Assembly (NCBI RefSeq): GCF_000209165.1
Contig: NC_009046.1
Coordinates: 868,001 to 932,000, forward strand
Origin: Scheffersomyces stipitis CBS 6054
Taxonomy: Eukaryota > Ascomycota > Pichiomycetes > Serinales > Debaryomycetaceae
DNA: 64,000 nucleotides
Direction of reading: 5' to 3'
Of the stretch, positions 18,462-48,530 are shown piece by piece. Positions within the stretch are counted from its first letter, which is position 1. Each line of letters begins with the position of its first letter. A model generated the notes under the pieces. That model searched no databases. It was not told the origin of the DNA and saw only the letters and a list, made by a program, of their open reading frames with translations. Made by a program: the position numbers and the translations under genes.

Positions 18462-20333
18462 ACGGATACTTGACCTTATTCGTATTAGGAGAACTCATTA
18501 TACCTATAACGTTAGGGATTATTTGCTAATTCTAAGAAGAAGCTCTTTGGTAGGATTTTGAATCTTATATATTTTCAAGATGAGTTCGCTAATTTTTTTT
18601 GGAGTTGCGCTAAAAGAATCTAAGGATCTCGGAATGGTAAAAGCGTCCGAGTTACGTAAAAAGTGAACAAATTGCATGTGTACGCCTAGATTTTCTATTT
18701 CTAATCATGGCTTTTGATTGGATACTTCATTTTATGGTATGTTGAGCTCCAATATCATCACCAAGGCTCTTCTCTTTAAGGTGAATTGAAAAATACTAGT
18801 CGGTAGAGACCGGAGCGATTTTCTGTTGAGCTTACCAAAAAAATATCTTCCGATCTTCTCCTGGTTTCCCCTCCTTTTAAAATTAGAGCACTGATAGAAG
18901 GCTGCGAAAAACACTTATTCACTTGCTTCCACTTGCTTAAAAAGGGGACAGAAAATCTATCAAAACAACCAGACACACAGTTCTTGGTCGAAGGAGCACT
19001 CTTCATCAGTCTGGTCGGACTGAACCTTTTCGAGAACTTCTTGGAATTTATTTTACAGAAATCATCAGCTGATGACAGCTTCAGATTGCCTTAAATTTCA
19101 AGTAATATGCTCGTTTCCGAAGTTGCATTTAAAGTATCCAAGTGACCATAGTATCACTAGTAGACCCCAGGTAGCCGGATAAGCTGTGGTTCTTTTGACT
19201 TGTTCAAACCACTTAAAATACGCCGCCCAATCCAATTTCGGAGAGATACAAGATGTATCAGAATTGGCGCAGAGAGAGAGAAGGGAATGGGCTATCGCTA
19301 CGGTAGAAAACCCGTAGTGTGGAACCAAAGTGAAAATTCCATTGGTCTATCTAAATACACTATGGAATATTAGTTAGAAAAGCAATTGGTTGCTGTCTTC
19401 GGAATTTCTATTGTTGGGCTTAACTATGAACACACGACTGTTCAGTCTGGCTTGTAACTCTCTTCTAATGGGATGCTAACATACAAGAAAAATAATCAGA
19501 CACACAATCACAGCCTAATTGAGAGGTACAGATGCTCCCCATCTAAGACAGATTTGTTACTATTTATTGCAGGAAGGTACGCTATAGATCCTCTAGAAAT
19601 TAGTTACCTGAAAAATAAAATCTTAGAATGCATTTAGGATACATTTGCTTTCCTCCCCAAGTTGAACCCCCAAAAATATCAATTTTCCTTGGATGTGGCC
19701 CGATGCATGAACAACTGAATTATTTAAGGAAAAACCTCCAAGAGTGCTGCTGTAGAAGCTTGTGAAAATGAATTTTCTCCAATCTATTTGTTCGCCTAAG
19801 AGGACAATGCTTAAAAAACACATTTCAAAAGAGAATAATGTTAGAGAAATAAAGGAACTTTCGGATCACCAGGAAGAGAAGTTTGTATCATACTTTCAAA
19901 AAATCAGTAATCACTCTTACAGATTTTGGTACTGATAAGTAAAATACTTTTGACGATCTAGTAGGAAGCAAACAAGGCAATGACTATGAATTACCTTCAA
20001 TCCCTTGCTCATCCAAAATTGCATCTATGATATAAAAAAAAGTAAAGTTTTGGCTACATTGTATATTTATTTCATTATTATATATATGCCCAGCCGTTGA
20101 TAACGGATCCATATTCTTAGGTTTGCTGACATTGTTGTCCGTTCGGTATTCACCTTCGTATTTATGTTACTATGTTTCAGCCTCCTATTTTCCTCAGGTT
20201 TTAAGCTTGATTGAGTATAAACGTACTCTATTGTTTCCAAATTCAACATTGTCCCCTTGCAAAATTATATATATTGTTCTCTGACGAGTTTTCGCTTGAT
20301 TCATTCGGTTAATGAGGAAATTATCTTCTTGCT
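18462..20333. other. Gene-free left flank of retrotransposon cluster
   Basis: About 1.9 kb upstream of DIC1 with only short ORFs (up to about 76 codons) in conflicting frames. No tRNA, LTR or host gene could be recognised. It may be old decayed transposon sequence or part of a gene-free centromere-like domain; neither can be shown here. Confidence 0.4.
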
Positions 20334-21080
20334 CTATAGTGGGTAAGTATCGGAGATTTCCACTTCTTCAAATAAAGTAACCAACCAGCGTATCTTGTGA
20401 CATAAAGACAAGCTGGAGAAGAAGTAGTGGAAGCCATTTACGTGTAAAAAACAGTACAGTGTTGTGTAATGGGGATGAACCACTAGTAAGCTTATCCACA
20501 AATAAGAAAAGTTTGTTCCTGAGGGTATAATGAATACAGCAAGTGAGGACTGAAAACAGCAGAGGAAAGAATCTGTAATAAAGCTGCAGTGAGTAGCATA
20601 TGAAGACTTGGGGATACGGCGAGTGACCTCCACAATACCCAACACGGAAAGACAGTAAACTGATGAGGCTGAGGAACATCCATTCAACTACTTGTCTTGA
20701 AAAATAATCTTCCTTTAAAAAAATTCTAAAGTAGAATGAGTGCGACCTAAGCAACGGTGAAGAACAGAGATAGCATCAATACGAGCAGGCACACGGGTAG
20801 AGGCACAAACTTGAAAAGATGAGAATCAGGAATAATCTGTCCAATGAGACCTTTATATGATGAAAAAACAGGAAGGAAGTTAAACGAGATCGAGTACGAG
20901 CAGTAGCGACAGCTGAATAGATAAGCACACACAGAAACTAACATACATCACGGTGATCAACGGTAATTCACGTGCATGAAACTCCGCCAGAGACAGAGTA
21001 GACAGGGTCGGAAACTAAAACATCCCTGCTGTTGACTCACCAGAATTTAATGTAATAGAACATAAATGACAAGGAAGGAT
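20334..21080 (-). pseudogene. Relic D1: decayed C-type retrotransposon pol with internal deletion
   Basis: Translating the minus strand in shifting frames gives a series matching element C. Protease/pre-integrase remnants come first (SAVATARTRSRFNFLP against AVAAARSKSNFNFLP of C), then GQIIPDSHLFKFVPLP and AISVLHRCLG (C: ALSVLHDRLG). Integrase N-terminal remnants TRRIPKSS and TAALLQ...PHLLYSLYPQEQTFL follow. The sequence then jumps to the RNase H segment WLVTLFEEVEI (C: WLVTLFKELEI) at about 20340-20395. The rest of integrase and all of RT are missing, so a deletion of over 2 kb relative to C is inferred. Stops and frameshifts throughout show an old, dead copy. No LTR could be delimited. Confidence 0.75.
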
Positions 21081-21419
21081 TATAGCCTCAGCACATAATT
21101 GTAATTTGTGCTCCCATGATTCTAATATGCAGAATGGCTGCAAAACCTAACTCTCAAGCGTTGAAGTGCAAGCACTAGAGCCAGGTCATAGTTGATATTT
21201 TTGCGGTAATCTCCCCATAGATGAAAACCTTTTCGACAGTATCGCTACAAAAAACATATTGAAAATTTTGTATACCTACAAGAAGTCACACTTCTATGAA
21301 ATCGTCAGCTGCTCATAAGGCACTTAACAAATACATTGACTTTACATGAAGCAACCAGAAGGGTATCTAGACAACCAAAGGATTGTCGTGGTGTACAACT
21401 TGTGATAGCCTAGCTATGG
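21081..21419. other. Unassigned spacer between relics D1 and D2
   Basis: About 340 bp between the two relics. A segment near 21135 (GAATGGCTGCAAA) resembles part of the B-type LTR and could be a decayed LTR fragment, but the match is short. No gene seen. Confidence 0.3.
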
Positions 21420-23124
21420 CCCAAAGTGTTGCAATGCCATTCTTAAGTATACTAATTTCCAATTCCAACATTGCTTCAATCCACGTCTCACGTTGTGGAC
21501 TTCGCATCGCTTCATCCTACGTGTTCGGAACGAGGTGGGCTCTGGAAACAAAGGCTTGCGCCATGACAATTTGGGTTGATATCACGATAGTCGAGGTCTT
21601 CAGAGTTGTCTGCTTCTTCAAACGTCTCATTGCTGTCATATTCAATATACTCCACTTGTTGAGGCTGCACGTTATCAGTTTTATGATACTTTAATCTGTG
21701 AGGGTGCAGAGGGTCTCGAGAGGGAACTGGTGTGAGTTTGCGCTTCAGAACAATGCGTTGTTCTCGCGCACCAAACGGAACAAGCTGCATCTTATTGATC
21801 AGTGGAGTAGGCAGCGATGCGGTAAGTGCTTTCCCCCAAGAAGCAGACACGGGGAGAAGAGCAGGATAGTTTGACTGGTAGTACTCGGAGCCACGCAGGG
21901 CCGTGGACGAGGGCGACAGTCCCGGAGTTATGACCAATGGGCTACTCGTGGGGACTGGAACTTGCGAGAACGGGTGTGGAACAGGTAGCCACTGCTGATA
22001 TATGAGCAGGTGATGATGAAGGAGCAAGAATATCGTAGAGATGAAAGTCCTCAGAGACCAGGTCATACATGTGTTCCATGTCTTCCAGAGTAATGGAAGG
22101 AGAATCAGGATGAATAAACAGATACGAGCCACTAGGAGACAGGTCATATACGTAATCCAGATCGTACAGGTCTTCCATATCGATGGAAGGAATAGATGAA
22201 TCAATGTGCATGTGGGAACGACGTGACTCCATATCGGATCCATTTTCCATATCGATGGAAGGAGTAGATGAGACAACATGCATGTGGGAACGATAAGAGG
22301 TCACATCTGATACATCCTCCATGTCTATGGAAGGTGTAGCGTATACAGAACGACGAGAACCCAGATTCGAGACTACTTCCATATCTATGGTAGGAGTAGG
22401 AGGTATAGAACGCTGATGGTAACGATGAGAGCTACCATCAGATGTGTCTTCCATAGCGATGGAAGGAGCAGCATACAGGGACGAGCGATGAGAGACCGAT
22501 GCCACAGACATCACAGCATCGGGCAGTGATGCAGCAGGAATGGACAGTGACGAACCAGGGTTAGAAGACGGACGTGTGACAGTAACCGGATGAGACGCAG
22601 AGCCACCGGTGATGCCAGGAGAAATGCTCTACATGGAGAGCAGAATCGAGTGTGGAGAACAGACTCTTCAGTTGCACAAAAGGAAATAGTTGTTCGTCGA
22701 AGCGAACATGGACAGACGTATGGACCTGACCACTGGAGAGGTCGTAGATGAGATAGGCCCTACGATGAGGGTCACATCCCCTCTCAGTGCACGAGCAGTT
22801 AACTTCAGGTCACGGTACTGAGGAGGAACGAAGGGGTAGGCAGCACATCCGAACACCCGTAGATGTTTCAAGATTGGAAGTTGTCCATGCCAAATTCAAA
22901 AGGAGACCGATTGTCAAGCACCCTAGTAGGAAGACGATTTATGAGATACGCTGCGTGCGTAACAGCATACGAGTAGAGAGAAGGAGGAAGGAAAGACTCC
23001 GCAATCATGGTGCGAGCCTTGTCAAGAATAGTACGAATTGTCCGCTCAGCCCGTCCATTTTGGTGGGAGTTGCCGGGGACAGTAAGTTGGAAATGGACTC
23101 CTTCATTGTCGAAGAACGAGCGAA
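21420..23124 (-). pseudogene. Relic D2: decayed B-type retrotransposon, integrase middle to RT start
   Basis: Minus-strand remnant in several frames. Integrase from the middle of the catalytic core comes first (SFFDNEGVHFQLTVPGNSHQ at the A1 boundary, then NGRAERTIRTILDKARTMI and AYLINRLPTRVL), followed by RVFGCAAYPFVPPQYR. A low-complexity linker carries five or six PSIDMED-type repeats spaced about 66-72 bp (22075-22470). It ends in the RT entry motif SPQRETWIEAM at about 21440-21500, after which homology is lost. It is related to element B but clearly diverged, and frameshifts and stops make it inactive. Its upstream half is absent: the right edge is the A1 5' LTR, with no continuation of D2 on A1's far side. 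Confidence 0.85.
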
Positions 23125-23582
23125 TGTTGAAATCCGGTATTAGATAAAGTTTGATCATGCATATTCATGCATAATCTAGAAAACATCGTATATGCCGGAT
23201 ATTGAAAATCTAATAGATTTGGCTGCAACTCTTGTGAGAGACAATCATATATCATAATAAGGATATGGTGGTAATAGAAAACACAATGGGTATACAGAGA
23301 GGATAAGAAAACCCCACACGGACATACGGAAATAGATGTGGTGAAAGGTCTCAACCCCACAGCTATGAAACAAATGTGAATCAGAGAACAGGATCCATGA
23401 GAACAAGAATCCATGGAGCATGTGGATGTGAAACAATACTATAAATAAGGGTAGTATCCCCTTAGAGTTAGATAGACTTTCTTAATATTTTAATAACGAG
23501 AACGAGAACAACTTACAAGTTCTACCTTTACTGTTAACAATTATTACACGTAAGACACTATGAATGCTTCTGAACTTCAACA
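23125..23582 (+). repeat. A1 5' LTR
   Basis: A 458-bp LTR starting TGTTGAAATCC and ending CTTCAACA. It holds a clear TATAAATA box at 23443-23450, where the A2 LTRs read CATAAATA, and the gag start codon at 23560. It differs from A1's own 3' LTR at many sites and by small indels. Confidence 0.93.
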
Positions 23583-26500
23583 GGTTATGAGCCGTCACCT
23601 GAAGTTCAACTACTCAATTTCGTTTCCTTCAGAGCAATTGTTGGCTTCAAAGAACAACTTTCCATTATGTAAAACCAGAATGGATCAACTTTTCGAACCA
23701 ATTGGAAAAGAATTTGTGGCATATCTTTTGCCTCTGACAAATGTTGACACTGGATACACTTCTGAGGACAGATCCGCATTCAACTCCTATATTGACTTTG
23801 TTCTTTCCAAAACCTTGTCTGAGAAAGTTCGTAGTACTCTCAGTCGTGAGCCAGTCACTGGCAGAGCACGTTGGTTACGGGTTCTTGATCTTTATGGTAC
23901 CATGGATCACCACGATGTTGCCCAATATGTCAAGTCGTTATTGACAGTGATTAGCACTCCATCTTTGACAACTGACGTGGTTAAGCCGGTTTTTGACTCT
24001 CTTTATTCCTTGAACGAATCCTATACCTTTGATGAAATTAAGGGTCTTCACCTTCTAGTTACTCGAAGTTCCCCTAATCTCATGCAAAATTACTTCCACC
24101 TGGGCAACGAATCGTTGAAGTATGATGATGTTTTCAAATTTCTAGCAAAAGCAGAGAATTCTACCGAAACTCCTACTGCTCCATCAGTTCTTGCTGCTAC
24201 CTTTTCCACTGACACCAGACGTCCTTCTGTTGATGCAAATGATCCGCTTTGGAACACTAAGTGTTACAACTGTGGTGGTCGTGGTCACAGACGTGATGTG
24301 TGTTGCTCGCCTATTCGTGTTGGTAAGTATACTGGATGGCTGACTAATACGTCCAAGAAGCGCTCCTTTAGTGACAATGAGCGCAAGAAGCAATACAAGT
24401 CAGGTGCTACTGCAAATGTTGCTGTTAACGAAAGTGCTTTCGTGCTCACTACAACCACCGGCACCACGACATCTCAGTCACCGGAGTTCATCTTTGACTC
24501 TGGTGCTTCGATTCACATTTGTCATGATCGGTCCTTGTTTTGGAATTTTAAACCGGAGTCCGGTAGTTTCGTTTCTTGTGCTGGCGGAGTTCGTCTTCCT
24601 GTCTTAGGTAGAGGGTCTATCAGGTTTAGGTCTGCTGATGAGACTATAGTCCTTCAGGAAGTATGCTATGTTCCAGAATGCACTAAGAATCTTATCTCCG
24701 TGCATGCTGCTGTTCGTGTCTCTGGTTCGCCCCTTACCACCAAATTAGACGGAATCTATCATCCACGGATTGGTCGTTTTGGTGTCTATAGGGACGATCT
24801 TGGACTTTCCGTCCTTGATATGAAACCTGTACCACCTTTAGTCTCCGCCTTATCTGTTCTTCATAACCGTCTTGGTCATCCGCATCAGGCTATTGAACAG
24901 CAAGTTCTTCGTGACAATTACTCGCTTGCTGAAATTGAGAACATTGGTGATGTAACGAAGAGTTGTGCGAGCTGTCTGGAATATAAGAAGACACGTAGTA
25001 TCCCGAAGGTTTCCCATAAATCGGATACAACAACTCCTTTACAAATTCTTCACTCGGATGTCTCCGGCCCTCATAATACGCCAGGAATCTCTTCTGAAAG
25101 CTATTTCTGTGTGCTTGTGGATGATTATAGCAAGTTTAAGTGGGTGTTCCCAATCGTTAGGAAGTCGGATGCGGCCCACCAGATTATTATCCATATTCGG
25201 CTACTACACTCATTTTTCTCTACTCGTGGTGGATATCGTGTTGGTGCTCTTCGTACCGATAATGGGGGTGAATTTGTCAACCATAGTCTCAGGAGCTTCC
25301 TTGAACAGGAAGGTATAGCACTTCAGCGTACGGTTGCTCACAATTCTTATCAGAATGGAACCGCAGAGCGTTCGATCCGCTCGGTAATCGATAAGGCCAG
25401 GACGCTACTTGGACATGCTTCTGTTCCTCAAGCATTCTGGCCCTACGCTGTTAAATGTGCCGCATATTTATTGAATAGGCTTCCCTCCAGGACTATTGGT
25501 GACAAGACGCTGTTCGCACTATTGCACCTCGAACCACCGTCGATTGATCATCTCCGCACGTTTGGGTGTGCTGCATTTGCTTATATTCCTGAACCTCTTC
25601 GTCCCCTGAAATTCTCACCTCGGGCCGTTAAAGGTGTGATGTTAGGCTATGATAGCAACCGCTCATCATACTTGATATATGAATTACATTCTCATAAAGT
25701 AGTTAGCTCCAATCAAGTTTCGTTTGATGAATCGATCTACCCATTTGAAAACTCACCTGATCATGCGCCAACTACGTCTGCTTCGACTATTCCTATGGGC
25801 GTGTCTGGTGTCCCTCGCTTCTCATCCGACGTTGCCACCACTTCACGAGCTGAACACATCTCGAGTGATGAACATGAAACTTCCTCGAGCGATCACTCAC
25901 GCGCACAATCACCTGATATGCACAGGGACGATTCTCCTGCTACCCCTGTATCTATTTCGCACAATTTGCAACCATTACATTCGTCCCCTGCTGCGTCTCT
26001 TCTGTCCTATGATTCCACGGACTCTGAACTTGCACGCATGCCATCTAATCTCCTCGCATCCGATTCTACGGGGGGTGAGGTTCTCACCAAACACTCATTG
26101 ACACCAGTGATAAGTCCTGACCAAAATCAGAGGACTGGAAACAAGAGAAAGAAAGTGCCATCAACGAAGATGACAAAGAAAGTGAGATATGAATACATTG
26201 AAGATGACAATGAGTTTTGGAACGAGACTTTAGAATCGAATAGCGATGATCCGAATGATGATACATATGATGAAGCTAATATTTGCATCCAAGGTCATGC
26301 TTATCAAATGTCGGTTGAATCTACAGAGAGCAAGAAAGTACCAAACACATACGAAGAAGCCATTAATTCTTCAGATTCTGAGAAATGGATTGAAGCCATG
26401 AATACCGAAATGGCTGCTCATTCTGAAAATGACACATGGACATTAGTGGATCTCCCGGAAAAGAAAACGAAAGTCCTTGGAGTAAGATGGGTGTACACCA

Positions 26501-27840
26501 TCAAGGATGGAGGAAAATACAAAGCTAGGCTTGTGGTACGAGGATTTCAACAAAGATATGGAGTTGATTACAAAGAGACGTTTGCTCCAGTAATTAGGAG
26601 TGAGAGTGTCAAGTTGTTACTTGCACTTGCGGCCATGTATGGAAAGAAGGTACACCAGATGGATGTGTCAACTGCATTCTTGAATGGTAAGATTGATCTT
26701 AAGATCTACATGAAGCAACCATCTGGGTACCAGGATTGTAGTGCCTTTGAGAAGGTGTGTCAGCTTAATAAGTCCTTGTACGGATTGAAACAGGCTCCAT
26801 TGATATGGAATGAAACAATGAATAGTTTCCTTGAGAAGATCGGTTTTAAAAGGTCTTTGTCAGAGTATGGACTATACACGAGAAGAAGTGTGATCATTGG
26901 ACTTTATGTCGATGATTTATTGATTGCTGGAGACAATCAGAATGAGATAAAAGAAATCAAGGGACAGTTGAGTGCCCAGTTCAAGATGAAAGATCTTGGA
27001 ATAGCTAGGAAGTTCCTAGGCATTAATATCACTCAAGGGAGTGATGGAATAAAAGCAGACTTAGGGGATTATATTGATAAGATCCTAGAAGAGTTCGGAA
27101 TGGAGAACTGTAACCCAGTATCAACACCAGGTTTGCCTGGATTGAAACTTGAAAATAACGAGACTGCGTTATTGGAGAATCCTACCTTATACCGATCAAT
27201 AGTTGGAAAGTTGCTATATGCTAGCAACACGGTAAGAGGAGACATAAGTTTTATTACAGGAGTTCTCAGTAGATACTTTAAAGAGCCAAGAGAGGAACAT
27301 CTTACAGCAGCGAAGCATGTTCTTCGATATCTCAAGGGAACCAGGTCTCTTGGGCAACGTTACTCAAAGACTGGACAACTTGAAGTATTTGTAGACGCAG
27401 ATTGGGGATCTTCAACAGACAATAGGAAATCCATCACGGGCTATGCAGTGAAGTTCGGAGGAGGATTGATTTCTTGGAAATCGAAGAAGCAAGCTATAGT
27501 CGCAACTTCTACCACTGAAGCCGAATATATCGCACTAGCAGAAGCCGTGAAAGAAGTGCTTTGGTTAAGAACCCTATTTGGTGAACTACAGATACCACTA
27601 ACATTACCTATAGGAATTCATGAGGATAATGTATCCTGTATAAAACTAAGTGAACATCCAACCGTTCATCTGAGGACTAAGCATATCGACATAAGATACC
27701 ATTTCATCCGTGAAAGGATAAAAGAGGAGACTATCAAATTAATACCTGTCAAATCTGAATTCAATATAGCTGACATATTCACAAAGGCTCTAGCAAAACC
27801 ACAACACATAAAATTAAGAGCGTTAGCAGGGATTTCGTGA
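23560..27840 (+). CDS. A1 gag-pol polyprotein (Ty1/copia, single ORF)
   Basis: An intact 1426-codon ORF starting inside the LTR. Domains in order: gag; CCHC zinc knuckle (C235-C248, CYNCGGRGHRRDVC); aspartic protease DSGAS near 313; integrase with zinc-binding LHNRLGH...CASC near 434-470 and catalytic residues in HSDVSGPH (about 500), RTDNGGEF (about 567) and NGTAERS (about 602); a Ser/Asp/Pro-rich linker (about 730-900); reverse transcriptase with HQMDVSTAFLNG (about 1035) and YVDD (about 1116); and RNase H with VDADWGSS, TTEAEY and HEDN. Domain order PR-IN-RT-RH defines copia (Pseudoviridae). It differs from A2 at roughly 20 residues. In gag, Cys37 replaces a Trp kept in A2, C and B, so this copy may be impaired. 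Confidence 0.95.
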   Translation: MNASELQQVMSRHLKFNYSISFPSEQLLASKNNFPLCKTRMDQLFEPIGKEFVAYLLPLTNVDTGYTSEDRSAFNSYIDFVLSKTLSEKVRSTLSREPVTGRARWLRVLDLYGTMDHHDVAQYVKSLLTVISTPSLTTDVVKPVFDSLYSLNESYTFDEIKGLHLLVTRSSPNLMQNYFHLGNESLKYDDVFKFLAKAENSTETPTAPSVLAATFSTDTRRPSVDANDPLWNTKCYNCGGRGHRRDVCCSPIRVGKYTGWLTNTSKKRSFSDNERKKQYKSGATANVAVNESAFVLTTTTGTTTSQSPEFIFDSGASIHICHDRSLFWNFKPESGSFVSCAGGVRLPVLGRGSIRFRSADETIVLQEVCYVPECTKNLISVHAAVRVSGSPLTTKLDGIYHPRIGRFGVYRDDLGLSVLDMKPVPPLVSALSVLHNRLGHPHQAIEQQVLRDNYSLAEIENIGDVTKSCASCLEYKKTRSIPKVSHKSDTTTPLQILHSDVSGPHNTPGISSESYFCVLVDDYSKFKWVFPIVRKSDAAHQIIIHIRLLHSFFSTRGGYRVGALRTDNGGEFVNHSLRSFLEQEGIALQRTVAHNSYQNGTAERSIRSVIDKARTLLGHASVPQAFWPYAVKCAAYLLNRLPSRTIGDKTLFALLHLEPPSIDHLRTFGCAAFAYIPEPLRPLKFSPRAVKGVMLGYDSNRSSYLIYELHSHKVVSSNQVSFDESIYPFENSPDHAPTTSASTIPMGVSGVPRFSSDVATTSRAEHISSDEHETSSSDHSRAQSPDMHRDDSPATPVSISHNLQPLHSSPAASLLSYDSTDSELARMPSNLLASDSTGGEVLTKHSLTPVISPDQNQRTGNKRKKVPSTKMTKKVRYEYIEDDNEFWNETLESNSDDPNDDTYDEANICIQGHAYQMSVESTESKKVPNTYEEAINSSDSEKWIEAMNTEMAAHSENDTWTLVDLPEKKTKVLGVRWVYTIKDGGKYKARLVVRGFQQRYGVDYKETFAPVIRSESVKLLLALAAMYGKKVHQMDVSTAFLNGKIDLKIYMKQPSGYQDCSAFEKVCQLNKSLYGLKQAPLIWNETMNSFLEKIGFKRSLSEYGLYTRRSVIIGLYVDDLLIAGDNQNEIKEIKGQLSAQFKMKDLGIARKFLGINITQGSDGIKADLGDYIDKILEEFGMENCNPVSTPGLPGLKLENNETALLENPTLYRSIVGKLLYASNTVRGDISFITGVLSRYFKEPREEHLTAAKHVLRYLKGTRSLGQRYSKTGQLEVFVDADWGSSTDNRKSITGYAVKFGGGLISWKSKKQAIVATSTTEAEYIALAEAVKEVLWLRTLFGELQIPLTLPIGIHEDNVSCIKLSEHPTVHLRTKHIDIRYHFIRERIKEETIKLIPVKSEFNIADIFTKALAKPQHIKLRALAGIS
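23583..23593 (+). promoter_or_regulatory. A1 primer-binding site
   Basis: GGTTATGAGCC directly follows the LTR end. It is complementary to the anticodon arm (GGCTCATAACC) of yeast initiator tRNA-Met, the internal half-tRNA priming scheme known from Ty5 and Drosophila copia. It lies inside the ORF, encoding part of QQVMS. Confidence 0.85.
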
Positions 27841-27864
27841 AGAGACTATTAGATTAAGGGAGGC

Positions 27865-27896
27865 TGTTGAAATCCGGTATTAGATAAAGTTTGATA
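27865..27896 (+). repeat. A1 3' LTR, left part (before B insertion)
   Basis: The first 32 bp of the A-type LTR, ending in TGATA (27892-27896). TGATA is the 5-bp target site duplicated when B inserted and is repeated at 39553-39557, after which the LTR continues. Confidence 0.95.
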
Positions 27897-28289
27897 TGTT
27901 GAACTGTTTGCTTTGGAAGCTCAGTAGATTGAATCGGATTGTTCATAATGTAGGACAGTATATTGATTAACTTATTTAAGATAGATAATTTCCATATAGA
28001 AGAAGAAAAGTTATAGAAAGTTAGAAAGGAGAAGGGGGAGTAAGACCCCCTTAAATAGATGCCAAATACAATCACAGGCTGACCCCTCATCGGGATGAAA
28101 TGAAACGACATGACCAGAATTTCAGGTTAGTCGGACATAATTGATTCTCATTGGTAGATGTTATCTTATCACATTACTGTGCACAATTATGTCTGAATGG
28201 CTGCAAATCCTGCATTCATAAAGTTTACGCATTGGATTAAAAATAGAATATAGAATATGCTTTTAGGTTTGATATCAGCATATTCAACA
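27897..28289 (-). repeat. B 3' LTR
   Basis: A 393-bp LTR, reading TGTTGAATATGC...CAGTTCAACA on the minus strand. By eye it is identical to the other B LTR at 39160-39552. Confidence 0.93.
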
Positions 28290-38461: not shown

Positions 38462-38906
38462 AGTGTCTTACGTGTAATAATTGTTAACAGTAAAGGTAGA
38501 ACTTGTAAGTTGTTCTAGTTATCGTTATTAAAACATTTAGAAAGTCTATCTAACTCTAAGGGGATACCACCCTTATTTATGTTGTTGTCTCACACTCACA
38601 TGCTCCATGTGATTCTTGTTCAATATCTCATGGATCCTATTCTCTGCATCACGTTCATCTCATAGCTGTGGGGTTGAGACCTTTCTCCACATCTGTTTCC
38701 ATATGTCCGTGTGGGGTTCTCCTATCATCTCTGTATACCTGCCATTGTGTTTTCTATTACCACCATATCCTCATTATGATATATGATTGGCTCTCACAAG
38801 AGTTGCAGCCAAATCTATTAGATTATCAATATCCGGTATCTACGATATTTTCTAGATCATGCATATTCATGCATTATCAAACTTTATCTAATACCGGATT
38901 TCAACA
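38439..38906 (-). repeat. A2 5' LTR
   Basis: A 468-bp LTR equal in length and apparently in sequence to the 3' LTR at 33689-34156. Followed by the GTGCG target duplication at 38907-38911. Confidence 0.95.
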
Positions 38907-39209
38907 GTGCGTGAACAATGACTGAACGTCAGGCTTCATACACTTGAGGATAAGCTCACGGAGCTTGTGGCTTAACGCCTGCTGGTCCGTAAAGGTGATG
39001 GAAAGTTCTTTCTCTGAAAGATAAGCAGCAATCTCTGTAGCCAAGACACAGCTACTGAACATACCAGTCATCCAGTCTTTCCATTCCAGAAAGTTCTCAC
39101 GGCCTCTGAGGAGAAGAGTATCAATGACCATGAGGCCGGAATTTAATTGGCTCATAACCTGTTGAACTGTTTGCTTTGGAAGCTCAGTAGATTGAATCGG
39201 ATTGTTCAT
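38907..39209 (-). pseudogene. B gag N-terminal part (cut off by A2)
   Basis: The first 101 codons of B's gag-pol, starting with an ATG (39209) inside B's 5' LTR (MNNPIQSTELPKQTVQQVMS). The frame passes through the primer site and gag residues such as FLEWKDWMTGMF, then runs into A2's LTR and stops within two codons. On the far side of A2 the frame resumes in phase at 33683, which shows that A2 interrupted an intact ORF. Confidence 0.9.
39149..39159 (-). promoter_or_regulatory. B primer-binding site
   Basis: The same 11-nt initiator tRNA-Met anticodon-arm complement as in families A and C, directly inside the B 5' LTR. Confidence 0.85.
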
Positions 39210-39552
39210 AATGTAGGACAGTATATTGATTAACTTATTTAAGATAGATAATTTCCATATAGAAGAAGAAAAGTTATAGAAAGTTAGAAAGGAGAAGGGG
39301 GAGTAAGACCCCCTTAAATAGATGCCAAATACAATCACAGGCTGACCCCTCATCGGGATGAAATGAAACGACATGACCAGAATTTCAGGTTAGTCGGACA
39401 TAATTGATTCTCATTGGTAGATGTTATCTTATCACATTACTGTGCACAATTATGTCTGAATGGCTGCAAATCCTGCATTCATAAAGTTTACGCATTGGAT
39501 TAAAAATAGAATATAGAATATGCTTTTAGGTTTGATATCAGCATATTCAACA
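39160..39552 (-). repeat. B 5' LTR
   Basis: A 393-bp LTR identical by eye to 27897-28289. It holds B's native start codon at 39207-39209 and is followed by the TGATA target duplication. Confidence 0.93.
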
Positions 39553-39557
39553 TGATA

Positions 39558-39993
39558 ATGCATGAATATGCATGATCTAGAAAATATCGTAGATACCGGA
39601 TATTGATAATCTAATAGATTTGGCTGCAACTCTTGTGAGAGCCAATCATATATCATAATAAGGATATGGTGGTAATAGAAAACACAATGGCAGGTATACA
39701 GAGAGGATAATAGAACCCCACACGGACATATGGAAACAGATGTGGAGAAAGGTCTCAACCCCACAGCTATGAGATGAACGTGATGCAGAGAATAGGATCC
39801 ATGAGATATTGAACAAGAATCACATGGAGCATGTGAGTGTGAGACAACAACATAAATAAGGGTGGTATCCCCTTAGAGTTAGATAGACTTTCTAAATGTT
39901 TTAATAACGATAACTAGAACAACTTACAAGTTCTACCTTTACTGTTAACAATTATTACACGTAAGACACTATGAATGCTTCTGAACTTCAACA
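39558..39993 (+). repeat. A1 3' LTR, right part (after B insertion)
   Basis: The remaining 436 bp of A1's 3' LTR. It ends CTTCAACA and abuts AATTAGACATTG, which is the C-type LTR minus its first seven bases. It is close to the A2 LTRs (about three differences noticed) but much less similar to A1's own 5' LTR. Confidence 0.9.
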
Positions 39994-40347
39994 AATTAGA
40001 CATTGTATATTAATAAAGATATAGTTAACTCTTGATAATGAAGTTCAATTTCAAGTTCTGATTATTCTTCTGATATTGGAGAATATCCTACCATATTTAT
40101 ATTGTTCAGAACCCCTTATCTTCCCCCTTATTCATATTCCTATCTCCCCCTATTCTTATCTCTAGCCCGCCTCCAATTTCATTACGGATAAGTTCTATTC
40201 CGTTGAGGCGGGTCTGATAAGGGGTTACTCCTATTCTCAGAGATAGGACCAGTGGAACTTCCTTATTTGTAAATTTGCAGCCGGTACTGCACATAGTTAT
40301 CTGATTGTTAGATTACAATTATAGTTTCAATTCTCTGAATTTCAACA
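39994..40347 (-). repeat. C 3' LTR, truncated by 7 bp
   Basis: 354 bp. Against the 5' LTR it lacks the terminal TGTTGAA at the A1 junction and has 16 extra bases near 40209-40224 (GCGGGTCTGATAAGGG region), plus scattered substitutions. Confidence 0.9.
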
Positions 40348-40371
40348 TCCCCCCATAATCTAATAATCGGA

Positions 40372-43300
40372 TTATTCAATATCCATCATTCCTGCTGAGT
40401 TTCGTAGTTGCTGGAGTAATGGCTTGGGAACTGCCTTCGTAAAGATGTCCGCGATATTATTTGTTGACTGAACTTGGACAACCTTGATCAATTCTTTCTG
40501 TACCTGCTCTCTTATAAAGTGATATCTGATATCAATGTGTTTTGTACGTTGATGAGTTGTTGGATGATTCGTTAAGTTAATACATGACGTATTATCTTCA
40601 TGTACTATAATTGGAAGGGTTACAGGGATTTCCAATTCTTTAAATAGAGTCACCAACCAGAGGACCTCCTTAACTGCTTCAGCAAGTGCCATATACTCGG
40701 CTTCTGTTGTAGATAGTGCAACTGTTGGTTGTTTCTTTGATTTCCACGAGATTAGACTTCCTCCGAACTTAATTGCATATCCTGTTATTGATTTTCTATC
40801 TGACAGCGAAGAACCCCAATCTGCATCAACGTACACCTCGAATTTATCCAGTTTTCCATATACCTGGCCCACAGTCTTTGTTCCTTTTAGGTACCGAAGT
40901 ACATGCTTAGCTGCTACTAGATGTCCCTCTCTAGGATTCTGAAAGTACCGGCTGAGCATGCCAGTAATGAAGCTAATATCTCCCCGAATGGTGTTACTAG
41001 CATATAATAACTTGCCAACAATGGATCTGTAAATTGTAGGATTGGCAAGAATCTTGGTTTCATCTTTATCTAACTGAGCATTTGGAATTGCTGCAGTTCC
41101 AACTGGGTTGCAATCTTGCATTGAGAATTCCTCCAAGATTTTGTCAATGTAGTCTCCCAAATGGGCTCTAATACCCTTTTCTGATTGCTGTATGTTTATT
41201 CCAAGGAACTTCTGTGCAATGCCGAGGTCTTTCATTTTGAATTCCTTCTTCAACAATTCTTTGATAGCCTTGATCTCATTTTCATTACTGCTTGCTATCA
41301 ATAGGTCATCCACATATAAACCAACAATGGTGTTCTTTCTTTTGTATAATCCGAATTCAGCTTGCGACCTAACAAACCCCACCTTCTCAAGAAACGCATT
41401 TATTGTCTTGTTCCATATCAACGGAGCTTGCTTTAGACCATAGAGTGACTTGTTGAGTTTGCATACTTTCCCAAGTTCATTTGTATGCTTGAATCCATCT
41501 GGTTGATTCATGAATATTGGTAAATCGATTTTTCCATTTAGGAATGCTGTCGTTACATCCATCTGATGAACTTTCATCCCATACACAGCAGATACGGAGA
41601 GTAGCACCTTTACACTCTCACTTCTGATTACTGGAGCAAAGGTTTCTTCGTAATCAACACCATATCTCTGTTGAAAACCTCTTGCGACTAATCTTGCTTT
41701 GTATCGACCATCATCCTTGATGGTATACACCCATCTCACACCTAACACTTTTGTTTTATCATTTGGTTTGTCTGCAAGAACCCACGTCTGGTTCATTTCA
41801 TGTGCAGACATTTCATCGTTCATTGCTTCTATCCATTTCCCAGCGTCTTGGCTTCCGACAGCTTCGCTATAGCTTCTGGGAATCTTGGGGCTACCTAAAA
41901 CACTTGTTGTAGCCGTGAACGCATGTCCTCGAATTACCACATTTGCTTCTGACATTTGGTAATCTTCATCATTTGGATCATCATTTAAAGACTCAGGAGA
42001 ACCTCCTTCGTAGTCACTTATGTATTCAATTCTAACCTTCTTGTGAGCCACAGCATTGTCATAAGAGGGAACTGGTGTAAGTTTATGTTTAGTGAGCCTT
42101 TGCTCACTTATCTCTTCCTGATTCATATTTGGTGTATCGTAAGTTCTTCCCGATGCATGAGACTTGCTGTGGATCTGAATCTGTTTCCCCCCAGAATTGG
42201 ATTCATGAGTGAGAAGAAGAGGAAGTGCAGGGCCAGCAAGACGTTGCGGACGTGAAGAAGCATTGGAAGAAGCGCGCAGAGAAACAGGAGAAATCACGGT
42301 GGTAGGCTGTATGGGAAGGGTTTCATCATCATCCGCCTCAGGAGAAATATCCGATTCATAAGAATAGCACGAGTCGTAGTCGGAACAAGATGGTATCGGT
42401 GCGAGAGACATAGTCTCATCATCCATGACATAATCATCGGACATGGCCGAATCATCAGCCAGAGCACCTTCATCAGCCAGCCTACTAGCAACAAGCAGTT
42501 TACTAGCAACAGGCAGGACGACGTCATCAATTACGGTACCATTATCAACAATAGTATCGTCATCAGCCATGGCAGCGTCACCAGCCATGGCCACATCATC
42601 AGACAGAAGATCAGAAATAGGCAGCAACATAGAACGAACAGGAAGAGGTGGGGCAGACACACCCCCAGGAAGGGACACAGAGATAGACAGGATAGGCATA
42701 GACACGGTAGACACGGGAGACACGGTAGACAGGGGAACTGGGAGACCAGGCAGAGAAGCAAAGGGGAACAACAGTTCGTTGAACGTAACAGCATTAGAAC
42801 AAACAACTTTGCGAGAGTGCATTTCATAGATGAGATAAGCATGGCGAGATCCATCGTACCCTAACATCACCCCAGTGATGGCCCTTTCAGAAAACTTCAG
42901 TGGACGGTGAGATTCAGGGATATGGGCATAAGCAGCACATCCATAAGGACGGAGATGCGCAATAACGGGGCGGATCTGGAACCAACGCTCATACGGAGAC
43001 ACGAACGGTGCTTGTAGCAGGGGTTGACGATTAATAAGATAGGCAGCACAGACAACAGCATACGGCCAGAACACAGCAGGCACCGAACCATGAGTCAGAA
43101 GGGTTCGGGCTTTATCAAGAATGGTACGAATAGCACGTTCAGCGGTACCATTCTGATGAGAATTATAAGGCACCGTTCTCTGATGAGAAATCCCTTCGTC
43201 CTGAAGGAATTTGGTCAACGTGGAATTGACATACTCACCCCCGTTATCAGTACGAATACTACCGACACGGTATCCACCACGAGTGGAGAAGAAAGAATGA

Positions 43301-44964
43301 AAGAGCTTGATGTGTCGAATCAATTGAGCGGAGACTTCGGACTTCTGTGCAATGGGGATTACCCATTTTAACTTGGTGAAGTCATCAACAATGATAAGAA
43401 AGTACTTCTCAGGACGATAGGAGGACTTCGGGAAGTGAGGACCTGATACATCAGAGTGAAGTAACTGTAAGGGAGCTGTGGTGACCGTAGCGATGGAAGA
43501 CTTAGGAACATGACGAGTGCTCTTTGCGACATTGCAACTTTCACATGCTGCAGGCAGATAAGAGGCTAGATCATATTTAGAGATAATCGTCTTTTCCAAT
43601 GCGGCATGAGGGTGACCTAGGCGATCATGAAGTACAGATAAAGCATGAACAGGAGCAGGAGGACGAACAAGTGAAAGCGTAAACTTGTAAAGGTTGGAGT
43701 CAGGAAGAACAGAGCCAACAAGTCCTAACACAGGATGAGAGACGGCAGTTGGCAGAAAGTTGAAATTAGATTTGCTACGAGCAGCAGCAACAGCAAGGGA
43801 AACGAGGTTCCTGGCACATCCAGGGACGTAGTAGACATCATGAAGTTCAACAGGAGTTTTACCGGCAAGAAACTTGACAGTACCAGAACCACAAACAGGG
43901 AGAGGGGCGCCATTAGCGCCAAAAATAGAACCAGCTTTCGACGAAACAGTGGGCTTGAAGTCCCAAAACAAGGTAGGATCATTACAGATATGATACGAAG
44001 CACCAGAATCAATAAGGAAATCAGTGGAGGCCAATAACATAGAAGGGGATACATTGAGGGAATACGCCTGGGTGGATGGGGTGGATGCAAAGGCATCACC
44101 AGCGGCAGTAGAAAAAGAATGAACACGAGGAGACAGAGAGGTACGGGACGACAGGAAATGTCCAGTACGAACAGGAGAAGGACAGCTAGTGGCCTTGTGG
44201 CCATTACCAAGACAATTGGTACACTTGAGAACAGGGGAAGTACAAACATTCGAACGGTGGCCCTTACCAGAGCACGTATAGCAACGGGTATTCCAGATAG
44301 GAGAGGTGGCAGGAGCTTTCTGGTGAGACTTCAGTCCAGCAGAGGAGAGAGTAGTCACCGTGAACACAGACCCAGGCGTGGAAGACAGTGAGGTATCGAT
44401 CCGTTTTAGGAACGATTTGAGGTCAGTGAGATCCAAGGTAGCACCAAGTTCCTTGAACTTAGACAAAATATGGTCCAGCTTACAGTGTGTAAGATAGAGG
44501 AGACCAGGAATGTCAGTAGGAGGCTGCTCAGCAAAGTAGGTAGAAAGCAGCTTGGCAGCCGATAACTGAACAGTAGTACTGACCGACGTGTCACTAATCT
44601 TAGCGACCAAACCAGTAACGTACTCGACCTTCTCAGAGTACGTCATAACCGAATAATTGACGTGGATAGCCTCCCAAAGAGCCTGACCAGAAAGATTCTC
44701 GGCAAGAAGAGAATCAACAATCTCTTTAGACACCGTCTTGTCAATAAGCAGCTGAAGCGTCAGGTTAAAAAGAATAAACAACGAAGCCTCGGTAGGTGGT
44801 TCAGATTTTTCAATGAAACCCCGGAACTCCACACCAAGAGTCCCAATAGTGACCTCCATACGCGTACGCCATTCACGATAGTTGAAACGCGAAACTAGTT
44901 TCTGGGAGTCATCAAACTTGATGTTTGAGACGGATTGGCTCATAACCTGTTGAAAATTAGACAT
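40372..44964 (-). CDS. C gag-pol polyprotein with two zinc knuckles
   Basis: An intact 1530-codon ORF starting inside the 5' LTR (MSNFQQVMSQ). Unlike A and B it has two CCHC knuckles in tandem (CYTCSGKGHRSNVC and CTNCLGNGHKATSC, about residues 229-261). Protease IDSGAS, integrase LHDRLGH...CESC with DDE residues (HSDVSGPH, RTDNGGEY, NGTAERA), a Ser/Asp/Met-rich linker with DD[ED]-type repeats, RT (HQMDVTTAFLNG, YVDD) and RNase H (VDADWGSS, TTEAEY, HEDN) follow. The frame has stayed open despite LTR divergence, which suggests that it was active until fairly recently or was preserved by chance. Confidence 0.95.
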   Translation of the reverse strand: MSNFQQVMSQSVSNIKFDDSQKLVSRFNYREWRTRMEVTIGTLGVEFRGFIEKSEPPTEASLFILFNLTLQLLIDKTVSKEIVDSLLAENLSGQALWEAIHVNYSVMTYSEKVEYVTGLVAKISDTSVSTTVQLSAAKLLSTYFAEQPPTDIPGLLYLTHCKLDHILSKFKELGATLDLTDLKSFLKRIDTSLSSTPGSVFTVTTLSSAGLKSHQKAPATSPIWNTRCYTCSGKGHRSNVCTSPVLKCTNCLGNGHKATSCPSPVRTGHFLSSRTSLSPRVHSFSTAAGDAFASTPSTQAYSLNVSPSMLLASTDFLIDSGASYHICNDPTLFWDFKPTVSSKAGSIFGANGAPLPVCGSGTVKFLAGKTPVELHDVYYVPGCARNLVSLAVAAARSKSNFNFLPTAVSHPVLGLVGSVLPDSNLYKFTLSLVRPPAPVHALSVLHDRLGHPHAALEKTIISKYDLASYLPAACESCNVAKSTRHVPKSSIATVTTAPLQLLHSDVSGPHFPKSSYRPEKYFLIIVDDFTKLKWVIPIAQKSEVSAQLIRHIKLFHSFFSTRGGYRVGSIRTDNGGEYVNSTLTKFLQDEGISHQRTVPYNSHQNGTAERAIRTILDKARTLLTHGSVPAVFWPYAVVCAAYLINRQPLLQAPFVSPYERWFQIRPVIAHLRPYGCAAYAHIPESHRPLKFSERAITGVMLGYDGSRHAYLIYEMHSRKVVCSNAVTFNELLFPFASLPGLPVPLSTVSPVSTVSMPILSISVSLPGGVSAPPLPVRSMLLPISDLLSDDVAMAGDAAMADDDTIVDNGTVIDDVVLPVASKLLVASRLADEGALADDSAMSDDYVMDDETMSLAPIPSCSDYDSCYSYESDISPEADDDETLPIQPTTVISPVSLRASSNASSRPQRLAGPALPLLLTHESNSGGKQIQIHSKSHASGRTYDTPNMNQEEISEQRLTKHKLTPVPSYDNAVAHKKVRIEYISDYEGGSPESLNDDPNDEDYQMSEANVVIRGHAFTATTSVLGSPKIPRSYSEAVGSQDAGKWIEAMNDEMSAHEMNQTWVLADKPNDKTKVLGVRWVYTIKDDGRYKARLVARGFQQRYGVDYEETFAPVIRSESVKVLLSVSAVYGMKVHQMDVTTAFLNGKIDLPIFMNQPDGFKHTNELGKVCKLNKSLYGLKQAPLIWNKTINAFLEKVGFVRSQAEFGLYKRKNTIVGLYVDDLLIASSNENEIKAIKELLKKEFKMKDLGIAQKFLGINIQQSEKGIRAHLGDYIDKILEEFSMQDCNPVGTAAIPNAQLDKDETKILANPTIYRSIVGKLLYASNTIRGDISFITGMLSRYFQNPREGHLVAAKHVLRYLKGTKTVGQVYGKLDKFEVYVDADWGSSLSDRKSITGYAIKFGGSLISWKSKKQPTVALSTTEAEYMALAEAVKEVLWLVTLFKELEIPVTLPIIVHEDNTSCINLTNHPTTHQRTKHIDIRYHFIREQVQKELIKVVQVQSTNNIADIFTKAVPKPLLQQLRNSAGMMDIE
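44937..44947 (-). promoter_or_regulatory. C primer-binding site
   Basis: GGCTCATAACC (plus strand) directly inside the C 5' LTR, the third independent occurrence of the initiator tRNA-Met anticodon-arm complement. Confidence 0.85.
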
Positions 44965-45292
44965 TGTATATTAATAAAGATATAGTTAACTCTTGATAAT
45001 GAAGTTCAATTTCAAGTTCTGATTATTCTTCTGATATTGGAGAATATCCTACCATATTTATATTGTTCAGATCCCCTTATCTTCCCCCTTATTCATATTC
45101 CTATCTCCCCCTATTCTTATCTCTAGCCCGCCTCCAATTTCATTACGGATAAGTTCTATTCCGTTGAGGTTACTCCTATTCTCAGAGATAGGACCAGTGG
45201 AACTTCCTTATTTGTAAATTTGCAGCCAGTACTGCACTCAGTCATCTGATTGTTAGATTACAATTATAGTTTCAATTCTCTGAATTTCAACA
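44948..45292 (-). repeat. C 5' LTR
   Basis: A 345-bp LTR with full TGTTGAA...TTCAACA termini. It is followed immediately by the integrase core of copy E (GTTCTGACAATGG). Confidence 0.92.
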
Positions 45293-47985
45293 GTTCTGAC
45301 AATGGAGGTGAGTTTGTCAATCTGACGCTTACTTCATTCTTTGCGGCAGAAGGTATCCAGACCCAGCTCACTGTGCCTGGTAACTCACACCAAAATGGAC
45401 GTGCTGAAAGGCCATTCGCTCCGTTCTTGACAAAACGCGTACCATGATCACTGCGTGTTCTCTTCCTTCACCGCTCTTCCCGCATGCACTCCAACATGCT
45501 GCATTTCTCCTAAACCGGCTACCAACACCTGTTCTCCAAAATCGCTCGCCATTTGAACTCTGGCATGGCGCGAGGCCTATCTTATCTCAACTTAAAGTGT
45601 TTGGGTGTGCTGCCTTTGTGAATGTTCCACCTAATCACCGTCAACTGAAGTTGGTCGCTCGTGCAATCAAGGGTGTTTATCTTGGATCTGATCCGTTTCG
45701 GAAGGCTCATCTTGTTTATGATCTCGCTACCAGACAAGTGATTACCTCTTCTCATGTTCGGTTCCAGGAAAATGTCTTTCCTTTTGCAAGACCTCTGACG
45801 TCAACTGTCGTGTCGGCTACCTCCATTGGTGGTGGTGGTAGTGGTGGTGGAAGTTTTCCTTCTATTCTGGCACCCGCTCCAGGCCTCACTCAGGGTCCTC
45901 ATGTATCTCTGGCCCCATCTCCCTCACCTCCATCCACGCCATCTGGCAGTACTGTTGCTCAATCGCCAGGTTCATCTGCAGCTCTGTCGTCTGCTTCGGC
46001 ACCGGTCTCTCCTGCTGCATCTACTACTCATCTGTCGCAGCCTCCGTCGACTCCTACACCGGTGCCTTCTCCTATTCTGGTGCCTTCTCCTATTCTGGTA
46101 CCTTCTCCTACTCCGGCGCCTGCTTCTGCTCCGGTATCTTCTTCTGCTCCGGTACCCTCTACTTCGGCGGTCCAAACTGCACCTTCCCGTGCCGTTGTTC
46201 CGGTTCAGAGGTCCGATCTGCCTCCCTCTGATCCCTACGAGCTGTCTGACGACTCCTACACAGCTCCTGCTTCTCGTGAGGTACCATCCATTCCTGCTCC
46301 TCGTAAGGTACCATCCCTTCCTGCTCCTCGTCAGGTACCATCCCTTCCTTCAACTCGTAAGGTGCCATCTCTTCCTTCTACTCGTACGGTACCTTCACTT
46401 CCAGCACCTCGTTCAGTACCCTTACTTGCTACTGTTCCTCTCGGTCTTCCTCATCCTGTGGTTGAACCTGCACCCACTATCCCTGGATCCTCATCGGCCA
46501 TACCCATGGAAATAGTTTCTACGGATACTGAGCCTGAACCTATGTCTGAAGATGGCTATGACATGGAAGTGGTCTCTGATCAGGAATTCTTCGATGCTCC
46601 TGAGCAATACGGTACTCATCCACGTTCGTCACCTCTGATCTCCACACGCTCCTCTATGGATGTTCTGCTGGATCAGGAAGAATATCCAGATCGTCAACCT
46701 ATATGGACATCGTGGTGATGGATTCGGATGACCTTTCTTCTTATCACGACTCGGAAATGGAGGATGCCTCCGACATGGATTCCCTTCCGCTTATTCGTCC
46801 TACTTCTAATATGGAAATGGAGGACACCTCCGCCACTTATTCTCTTCCGCTTACTCGTCATACCCCTACTACGCAGACTGTGGTGTCCTCTACACCTCCA
46901 CCTCCTCCTCAACCACTGCCTAGGGTCGTTCAATCCGACTCTCCTCAATCCTCTCCTATTATTGAGGTTCCTGATTCTCCCCCACTTCAATCTCGTTCTC
47001 AGCAATTCCTCCTCCCTCCGGGTCTTTCTCCTACTCGTCTCATTGAGTTGCCTGCTTCAGGGGGGGATGGAACTCATCCTATCGCTGTCTGACCGTGCCT
47101 TGGTCCCTCTGAATTCTGAGGCCAACAACAAACTAACTCATCTTGTTGTATCGCGTCCTCCTCCGGTGAATGGGGTTAAGCATATACTCACCCCGGTTCC
47201 GTCGCGTGATGGAACACATCCACAAACACTCAAGAGGGCACACAGACCAATACTTGTTCCAACACGGTCACAGAGACAACAGAACAATCAAAATTTGATC
47301 AACTATCCACAGAGACAACAAATTGAGTACTTCACCACCGATAGTGAATCGTTTTCAGAAGCAGACAATCCCAACGATCTCGACTATACTGAAACACATG
47401 ACCAACCTCTCATTATGGGTAGCAGTGCATATGTAGTGACCATAATGACTCCACAAGTGCCACGCACCTATGAGGAAGCCACTAACAGTCCTCAACGAGA
47501 ACGATGGATTGAAGCTATGAACAAGGAATTTGGTGCTCAAATGGAAAACTCCACGTGGACTCTTGCTGAGCTTCCTAAGGGAAAACGAGCCCTAGGAATG
47601 AAGTGGGTCTATACCATAAAAGATGATGGAACTTACAAAGCCAGACTAGTTGCTCTTGGTTTTAGACAAAAACATGGAATTGACTATGAAGAAACCTTTG
47701 CGCCTGTGATCAGGAGTGAAAGTATCAAACTTCTACTAGCCATTGCGGCTGTACATAAGATGAAGATTCATCAGATAGATGTCTCGACGGCCTTCCTAAA
47801 TGGGAAGATTGAAACAGAACTCTACAATAAGCAGCCTGAAGGTTTTATAGATGAACAATTTCCATATATGGTTTGCAATTTGAACAAATCACTCTATGGT
47901 CTAAGATCTGGAACTCTACCTACTACTAACAATTTCTTGGAGACGAACGGATTTATTCGATCGAAAGCCGAATTAGGATAAGCAA
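45293..47985 (+). pseudogene. Copy E: truncated, frameshifted B-type element (integrase to RT)
   Basis: Plus-strand copy very close to element B. It begins abruptly in the integrase core (SDNGGEFVNLT) at the C LTR and runs through the Pro/Ser linker into RT (QIDVSTAFLNG). Compared with B it has a 1-nt deletion in the NGRAER region (about 45410), a 1-nt deletion near 46692 and an extra G in a 7-G run near 47060, each shifting the frame. The linker minisatellites are shorter than in B. RT is further damaged (YGLRSGTLPTTNN) before a stop at 47979. The 5' half, protease and LTRs are absent. Confidence 0.92.
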
Positions 47986-48410
47986 AAAACGCAATCGTCG
48001 GTTTATATGTGGATGACTTATTGATAGCAAATAGCGATGAAAATGAAATCAATGCCATTAAATGTTAAAGAAGGAATTCAAAAAATACCTCGGCTTGCAC
48101 AGACAATGAACGTACACTATTTAGAAAAGAATATGGCCCATTTGGGAGACTATACTGATAAACTTCGAAAGAGTGCTATGGAAGATTGTAATCCAGTCGG
48201 AACTGCCGCAATTACAAACTTTCAGAATGATACCAAGATAGTTGACAATCCTACAATCTATTGATCAATGGTTCTTGAGTTTATATATGCTAACAACCCG
48301 ATCAGAGCAGATATTAGCTTCATTAATGATAGGCATTTCCAGAATCCCCGAGACGGTCATTTAATCGCAGGAAAGCATGCACTTCGGTACCTAAAAGGAA
48401 CAAAGGTATA
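47986..48410 (+). pseudogene. Relic F: C-type RT fragment fused in register to copy E
   Basis: Directly after E, at the equivalent position of RT, homology switches from family B to family C: IVGLYVDDLLIANSDENEINAIK (C: IVGLYVDDLLIASSNENEIKAIK), then MAHLGDYTDK, EDCNPVGTAAITN, NPTIY, RADISFIND, FQNPRDGHLIAGKHALRYLKGTK. Several short deletions and stops mark it as dead. Homology ends around 48410, near the start of RNase H. FIG4 ends 120 bp further on. Confidence 0.88.
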
Positions 48411-48530
48411 TTGTATGGAGAATTACAGTTGCAATTTAACTATCAAATTATTACATAGCTGCATAACAGAAGTTTACCTAAGGAAATCTTGCCTGCAAGA
48501 GTTAAATTCCTAATTTTCTGATGTATATGC

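Follow-up and report, generated by a model that had tools for sequence, protein, structure and literature searches.

Introduction

The centromeres of the yeast Scheffersomyces stipitis have been described as the only regions of its genome that carry a large cluster of Tps5 retrotransposons, about 20-40 kb in size (PMC8546629). That source cites Jeffries 2007, Lynch 2010 and Coughlan and Wolfe 2019 for the work on Tps5-cluster centromeres and gives strain Y-11545 a genome of 15.4 Mb in eight chromosomes. S. stipitis is also listed among the Ty5-cluster centromeres in PMC12711049. The DNA analyzed here, called the window throughout, is a stretch of 64,000 nucleotides from S. stipitis CBS 6054 (assembly GCF_000209165.1, contig NC_009046.1, positions 868,001 to 932,000 of the forward strand), or C6:868001-932000 in an assembly of 8 contigs (C1 to C8) and 15,441,179 bases.

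Between the genes DIC1 and FIG4, the window holds a block of Ty5-like retroelements (18462-48530) that an initial annotation had proposed to be the centromere or pericentromere of its chromosome. This proposal is supported by the presence of one such cluster per contig, by the published accounts and by the low G+C content at third codon positions (GC3) of the flanking genes. With a probability of roughly 0.93, the block would represent the regional centromere of S. stipitis chromosome 6, including kinetochore core and pericentromere, that is specified epigenetically and targeted by Tps5. The centromere assignment is right but already known for this species, and the analysis amounts to a confirmation, from raw sequence alone, of a centromere that is in print.

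One cluster of Ty5-like elements on each chromosome

Three element families were distinguished in the block and labeled A, B and C, labels of this analysis that are not equated with the published Tps5a-c. DNA searches of the assembly with the elements B2, A and C, in which the best 40 of 54, 40 of 51 and 40 of 70 candidates were scored, returned 50, 53 and 52 matches, respectively, with rows overlapping between searches. All 155 matches were located in one cluster on each of the eight contigs. By family matches the clusters span 23-43 kb each and together make up 1.8% of the genome, so that the confinement of 155 of 155 matches to them is not a matter of chance. All eight are internal, at 0.25-0.78 along their contigs. 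Near-identical copies of elements occur in clusters other than that of the window. The initial annotation had called for this genome-wide search and held that many equivalent clusters per chromosome would speak against a centromere; across the assembly, the best-scored candidates showed no such multiplicity, only a single cluster on 8 of 8 contigs. An RVT_2 search, with all 62 matches scored, placed 44 in the clusters and 18 at scattered sites that belong to other copia families. Three of these 18 were read in the linker between integrase and reverse transcriptase (RT), where they differ from the cluster families.

A different origin of such clusters would be a silent, gene-poor insertion sink for Ty5-like elements that is not a centromere. 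In S. paradoxus, subtelomeric and HM heterochromatin is the target of Ty5 (PMC7175516), and DIC1, a former anchor of the mating-type (MAT) locus, stands at the border of the block, with SLA2 at another cluster. We nevertheless consider a sink very unlikely, given a single, internal cluster on every contig and the assignment of these clusters as centromeres in PMC8546629.

In a regional centromere, CENP-A and not a DNA motif would probably specify the kinetochore epigenetically, with CENP-A presumably occupying the block. The Ty5-like (Tps5) families would keep inserting into centromeric chromatin, some feature of which their integrase most likely recognizes, and old copies would decay, recombine and be buried under new insertions. 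Because of this turnover, the block would stay gene-free and transposon-built at a constant position.

Gene content of the block

The list of open reading frames (ORFs) and similarity searches revealed no host gene between DIC1 and FIG4, and at least 26,858 of the 30,069 bases in this interval (89%) resemble retroelements, a slight undercount as 20274-20449 was matched in the blastn comparison only. Four of the ORFs of at least 120 amino acids in 18462-48530 were run against Pfam and all four encode copia proteins, with the remaining ones overlapping or falling within element or relic stretches. Both flanks of the block are gene-dense. The initial annotation's description of an interval without a convincing host gene, with genes dense on both sides and with four full-length or near-full-length copia elements of three families (B1, A, B2 and C; Table 1), was borne out. 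It had also claimed at least four relics; relics are indeed present, but the count here is three stretches, possibly four.

A non-transposon core shared among clusters was looked for with 18462-20300 as the query. After exclusion of the three loci that overlap this cluster, 48 of 51 were left, none of which gave a match; as these loci cover only part of the other seven clusters, the negative is a weak one. Edge matches of this search fell mostly on stretches with retroelement similarity.

Table 1. Genes, elements and relics in the window, with the evidence for each (aa, amino acids; LTR, long terminal repeat)
Feature	Position	Strand	Evidence
DIC1, mitochondrial dicarboxylate carrier, left boundary gene	17568..18461	-	Mito_carr 210.9 bits; close homologues named DIC1 or dicarboxylate transporter
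Similarity-free stretch, largest in block	18462..20273	.	no ORF of 120 aa; no match to elements or the 48 searched loci
Old C-like relic	20274..20887 (about)	-	blastn 69-72%; tblastn 29%, E 1.8e-5
Old A-like relic	21400..23124	-	tblastn 33-61% identity to A, best E 7e-37
Element B1: 5' LTR and uninterrupted 1426-aa ORF (23560-27840)	23125..27896	+	primer site at 23583; 5' LTR region 23125-23582
Element A, whole, split by B2	27897..39552	-	target duplication TGATA at both ends
Element A 3' LTR	27897..28289	-	100% over 394 aligned bases with other LTR; last aligned base outside LTR
Pol portion of element A, 1796-aa frame with integrase and RVT_2	28317..33707	-	long repeat-rich integrase-RT linker; first 19 nt within B2
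Element B2, inserted near A 5' end	33689..38906	-	5-bp target duplication GTGCG; LTR pair 100% identical over 469 aligned bases
Element A Gag N-terminal piece, severed by B2	38901..39374	-	PF17241 Ty5 Gag 20.8 bits, under cut-off 23.5
Element A 5' LTR	39160..39552	-	primer site at 39151
B1 3' LTR remainder beyond A insertion	39553..39993	+	90% identical to B1 5' LTR
Element C, 1530-aa ORF (40372-44964)	39994..45292	-	Ty5 Gag above Pfam cut-off
A-like relic, then C-/A-like sequence	45304..48405	+	81-94% to A; reaches within 126 bases of FIG4
FIG4-like gene with SAC domain, at right boundary	48531..51449	-	Syja_N 301.2 bits; name FIG4 from the initial annotation
MRP4 (mitochondrial uS2)	56674..58044	+	best solved-structure match named MRP4; Pfam S2
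LAG1/LAC1 ceramide synthase	58736..59989	-	best matches LAC1 and LAG1
HSE1-like	60695..62122	+	VHS, UIM, SH3, GAT domains
CAP1-like, F-actin capping protein alpha	62683..63483	-	domain match

Elements, nesting and Ty5-type features

Element B2 lies inside A and A inside B1, where the insertion of A interrupts the 3' LTR of B1 after about 33 nt. The insertions thus read as nested and, for A and B2, as recent, because their LTR pairs are 100% identical and flanked by 5-bp target duplications. B1 has no target duplication (GCGAA versus AATTA) and LTRs that are only 90% alike, so that it probably arose by recombination between two copies. The B2 ORF (34181-38461) is uninterrupted, as are those of B1 and C. 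Between the two LTRs of element C there are 5 substitutions and one 16-nt gap, and the left LTR is missing its outermost few bases. The part of element C used as a query matches an S. stipitis protein at 97% identity over 67% of its length. The long, proline/serine-rich integrase-RT linker of A (30843-31360) contains 27-bp and 18-bp tandem repeats in about 8 and 9 copies. In the left relic, 21707-22068 is 78% identical to the right end of the C1 cluster (L012:4163-4516), above its match to A, B or C, and perhaps represents an older fourth family.

The sequence GGTTATGAGCC directly follows the 5' LTR in all four elements, and GGTTATGAG was found nowhere else in the window. This is the Ty5 type of primer-binding site, complementary to the initiator methionine tRNA (tRNA-iMet), that PMC12711049 describes. 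The copia order rve, SH3_retrovirus, RVT_2 was found with Pfam in 3 of 3 proteins (B1, A and C), although the rve match of A (29.9 bits) is below the cut-off of 32.6. The Ty5 Gag family PF17241 was matched by C with 31.3 bits against a cut-off of 23.5, by the A piece below it, and not by B1.

A motif, KHxLTPV, is common to the integrase-RT linkers of A, B and C (28317-33707, 34181-38461 and 40372-44964, respectively) and was absent from those of three dispersed copia families, sampled as 3 of the 18 scattered matches. Among 240 proteins listed by homology searches, 120 of them copia homologues, LTPV or LTPI occurred in one, itself from S. stipitis. KHxLTPV is not claimed as a centromere-targeting motif because the dispersed families are too distant to serve as a fair control.

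Point centromeres were once reported for S. stipitis, which would place a sequence-defined centromere within one LTR of the block; the title of a 2019 report by Coughlan and Wolfe states that these are LTRs. The LTRs of family A recur within a single cluster, so that a motif in one LTR would occur many times, and the probability of a point centromere is close to nil.

Inverted arms and strand patterns

Inverted arms of 4,485 nt that are 98% identical (23412-27896 and 34125-38609) are real in the window, and the clusters of C3 and C7 also have inverted arms near their ends, as would be expected of an inverted-repeat centromere like those of Komagataella or Candida tropicalis, with the arms placed around a core. 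The window arms, however, are parts of B1 and B2, two separately inserted elements, with B2 carrying its own target duplication within A and A lying within B1. Additionally, the centromeres of S. stipitis are described as having no inverted repeats (PMC7263194). An inverted-repeat centromere was therefore rejected for this window and is scarcely credible as an account of the block, for which we retain a regional centromere built of successive insertions.

The mirror-image composite relics near both cluster ends are 99.4% identical over 3.2 kb in C3 (L031, L032) and 94% over 2.4 kb in C7 (L033, L034). An identical stretch of A is missing in both C3 arms; both C7 arms have a C-like piece beside A sequence, a composite unlike that of C3. 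An A-type LTR forms the outer end in each pair, and the arms could stem from two insertions of one non-autonomous derivative or from an inverted duplication.

The outermost A matches (own-family, at least 75% identity) point outward at 15 of 16 cluster ends: those at the left are on the minus strand in 8 of 8 clusters, and those at the right are on the plus strand in 7 of 8. Of merged units, 24 of 32 for A, 7 of 25 for B and 12 of 23 for C point outward, with B leaning inward (18 of 25). This bias was noticed post hoc, is weaker in full-length A copies (11 of 17), and includes the mirrored C3 and C7 arms, which are not independent.

Genes beside the clusters

Codon-weighted GC3 was 0.37 in 48 ORFs of at least 200 amino acids from the flanks of C1, C2, C4, C5, C6 and C8, with C3 and C7 outside the sample, versus 0.48 in 6 far ORFs of at least 150 amino acids (one-sided Mann-Whitney p 0.002), a control from 4 sites whose range, 0.35-0.59, overlaps that of the near ORFs. 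With a single limit of 150 amino acids for both sets (54 versus 6 ORFs), the means were unchanged and p was 0.001. The low GC3 of the flank genes agrees with a centromere, small as the control is, and low-GC surroundings of S. stipitis centromeres are attributed to Lynch 2010 in PMC7263194.

The gene content beside the clusters agrees with a centromere weakly, less so than GC3. To the right of the block, the window has MRP4, LAG1/LAC1 and the HSE1-like and CAP1-like genes; of their S. cerevisiae counterparts, MRP4, LAG1 and HSE1 occupy the fourth to second ORF positions left of CEN8, and CAP1 the seventh left of CEN11. Window genes read as SAC6, PEP3, SPB1, an APA1/2 gene, DIC1, FIG4 and SBA1 are not known to be S. 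cerevisiae centromere neighbours. By the ancestral pairing in Table 1 of PMC3141009, CEN8 and CEN11 both derive from ancestral CEN2. IPP1, RAD57 and MAF1 were found left of the C4 cluster, UTP20 left of the C8 cluster beside an HMG-box gene that is tentatively NHP10, and a histone H2A gene right of the C8 cluster. The C4 and C8 neighbours point to the two arms of ancestral CEN3.

Counted in the forward direction, 4 of 31 hand-grouped flank blocks lie within 7 ORFs of an S. cerevisiae centromere (AIM21; RAD57-MAF1; MRP4-LAG1-HSE1-CAP1; UTP20-NHP10), with P of 0.02-0.07 depending on the assumed background, a count for which the C3 and C7 flanks were partly read and unnameable genes dropped. The gene read as AIM21 matched 0 Pfam families, and without it the count is 3 of 31 (P 0.09-0.20); the enrichment is suggestive only. 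In the reverse direction, seven single-copy S. cerevisiae centromere-proximal genes were chosen before being placed, and HYM1, predicted from Ogataea polymorpha, was added later. RER1 and EFB1 were located close to a cluster, at 4.8 kb (C7) and 3.9 kb (C3), respectively; MRP17, OST1, RRP6, WBP1 and NIC96 are 0.56-1.44 Mb and HYM1 367 kb from the cluster of their own contig. Two of seven thus lie within 50 kb (P 0.05; two of eight with HYM1, P 0.06), and at a radius of 5 kb, chosen after the result, P was 0.0006 and 0.0008, respectively. This synteny signal is suggestive, not proven.

The arrangement SLA2-MAT-DIC1 has been called ancestral for the mating-type locus of budding yeasts (PMC13148404, PMC6692504). 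DIC1 adjoins the C6 cluster, and SLA2 (a protein with ANTH and I/LWEQ domains, L033:718-3852) adjoins the C7 cluster, where RER1 lies alongside. In Ogataea polymorpha, a centromere lies beside an SLA2 fragment (PMC6692504). In the accessible portions of the literature searched, no statement was found of SLA2 or DIC1 at S. stipitis clusters, and one may stand in Lynch 2010 or Coughlan and Wolfe 2019.

Conservation of centromere position has been described across Saccharomycetales, Saccharomycodales and Phaffomycetales over about 208 Myr (PMC12711049), and the four mentions of Serinales seen in that paper, all in its Introduction, hold no comparison of centromere position. Within the CUG-Ser1 clade, the surroundings of C. 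albicans CEN5 are partially syntenic with an S. stipitis centromere (PMC7263194). We hold it evenly balanced whether the Tps5 clusters occupy centromere sites inherited, together with the following chromosome assignments and the MAT split, from the ancestor that Serinales and Saccharomycetales have in common. Chromosome 6 would then retain the ancestral CEN2 neighbourhood (CEN8/CEN11: MRP4, LAG1, HSE1 and CAP1), and chromosomes 8 and 4 would each retain one arm of ancestral CEN3 (UTP20 with the probable NHP10; RAD57, MAF1 and IPP1). RER1 would mark ancestral CEN1 on chromosome 7 and EFB1 ancestral CEN4 on chromosome 3. Arm exchange at centromeres would have split SLA2-MAT-DIC1, so that SLA2 came to stand at the chromosome 7 cluster and DIC1 at that of chromosome 6, and the transposons would have colonized old centromeres and made no new ones. 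The statistical support for inherited sites is modest. The question bears on whether Ty5-like elements make or follow centromeres: if Serinales clusters do share centromere sites with S. cerevisiae, the position predates the transposons. The presence of S. cerevisiae centromere neighbours beside several clusters and of DIC1 and SLA2 each adjoining a different one are possibly new observations.

A GRC3-like gene (Pfam CLP1_P; L034:7034-7999) right of the C7 cluster and a RIX7-like gene (L041:6666-9194) left of the C5 cluster flank different clusters. GRC3 and RIX7 are neighbours in S. cerevisiae, and their split looks as if arms had been exchanged at the clusters.

Several points weigh against the block as the regional centromere. 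The cluster could be pericentromere, with the true core nearby. Isolated copies of the three families may exist beyond the scored candidates, and two of the 18 scattered copia matches, those at C1:2241338 and C4:1103043, are no more than 50 kb from a cluster. The GC3 control is small, and only 2 of the 8 chosen centromere-neighbour genes are near a cluster.

Comparison with known systems

The closest system is that of the S. stipitis Tps5-cluster centromeres themselves, with which the block shares the species with its genome size and chromosome number, a cluster size of 20-40 kb, one cluster per chromosome and three kinds of full-length LTR element. The window is the chromosome 6 example of these centromeres and shows no difference in kind. 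The nested order, the LTR identities and the gene-neighbour comparison were not found in the accessible portions of the published S. stipitis accounts.

Cyberlindnera sargentensis, Ogataea polymorpha and two Wickerhamomyces anomalus isolates likewise have Ty5-like clusters in large intergenic centromere regions (PMC12711049), with the same tRNA-iMet type of primer-binding site as in the window. Copies in C. sargentensis are all pseudogenes according to that source, whereas B1, B2 and C in the window have uninterrupted ORFs, and those centromeres are backed by Hi-C, whereas the block is known from its sequence. In Debaryomyces hansenii, low-GC retrotransposon clusters have been proposed as centromeres (PMC7263194), a likeness drawn by description. 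The inverted-repeat centromeres of Komagataella phaffii and Candida tropicalis are likewise regional and gene-free, and inverted arms can be drawn in the window too; unlike the arms of those species, the ones seen here come from separate transposon insertions.

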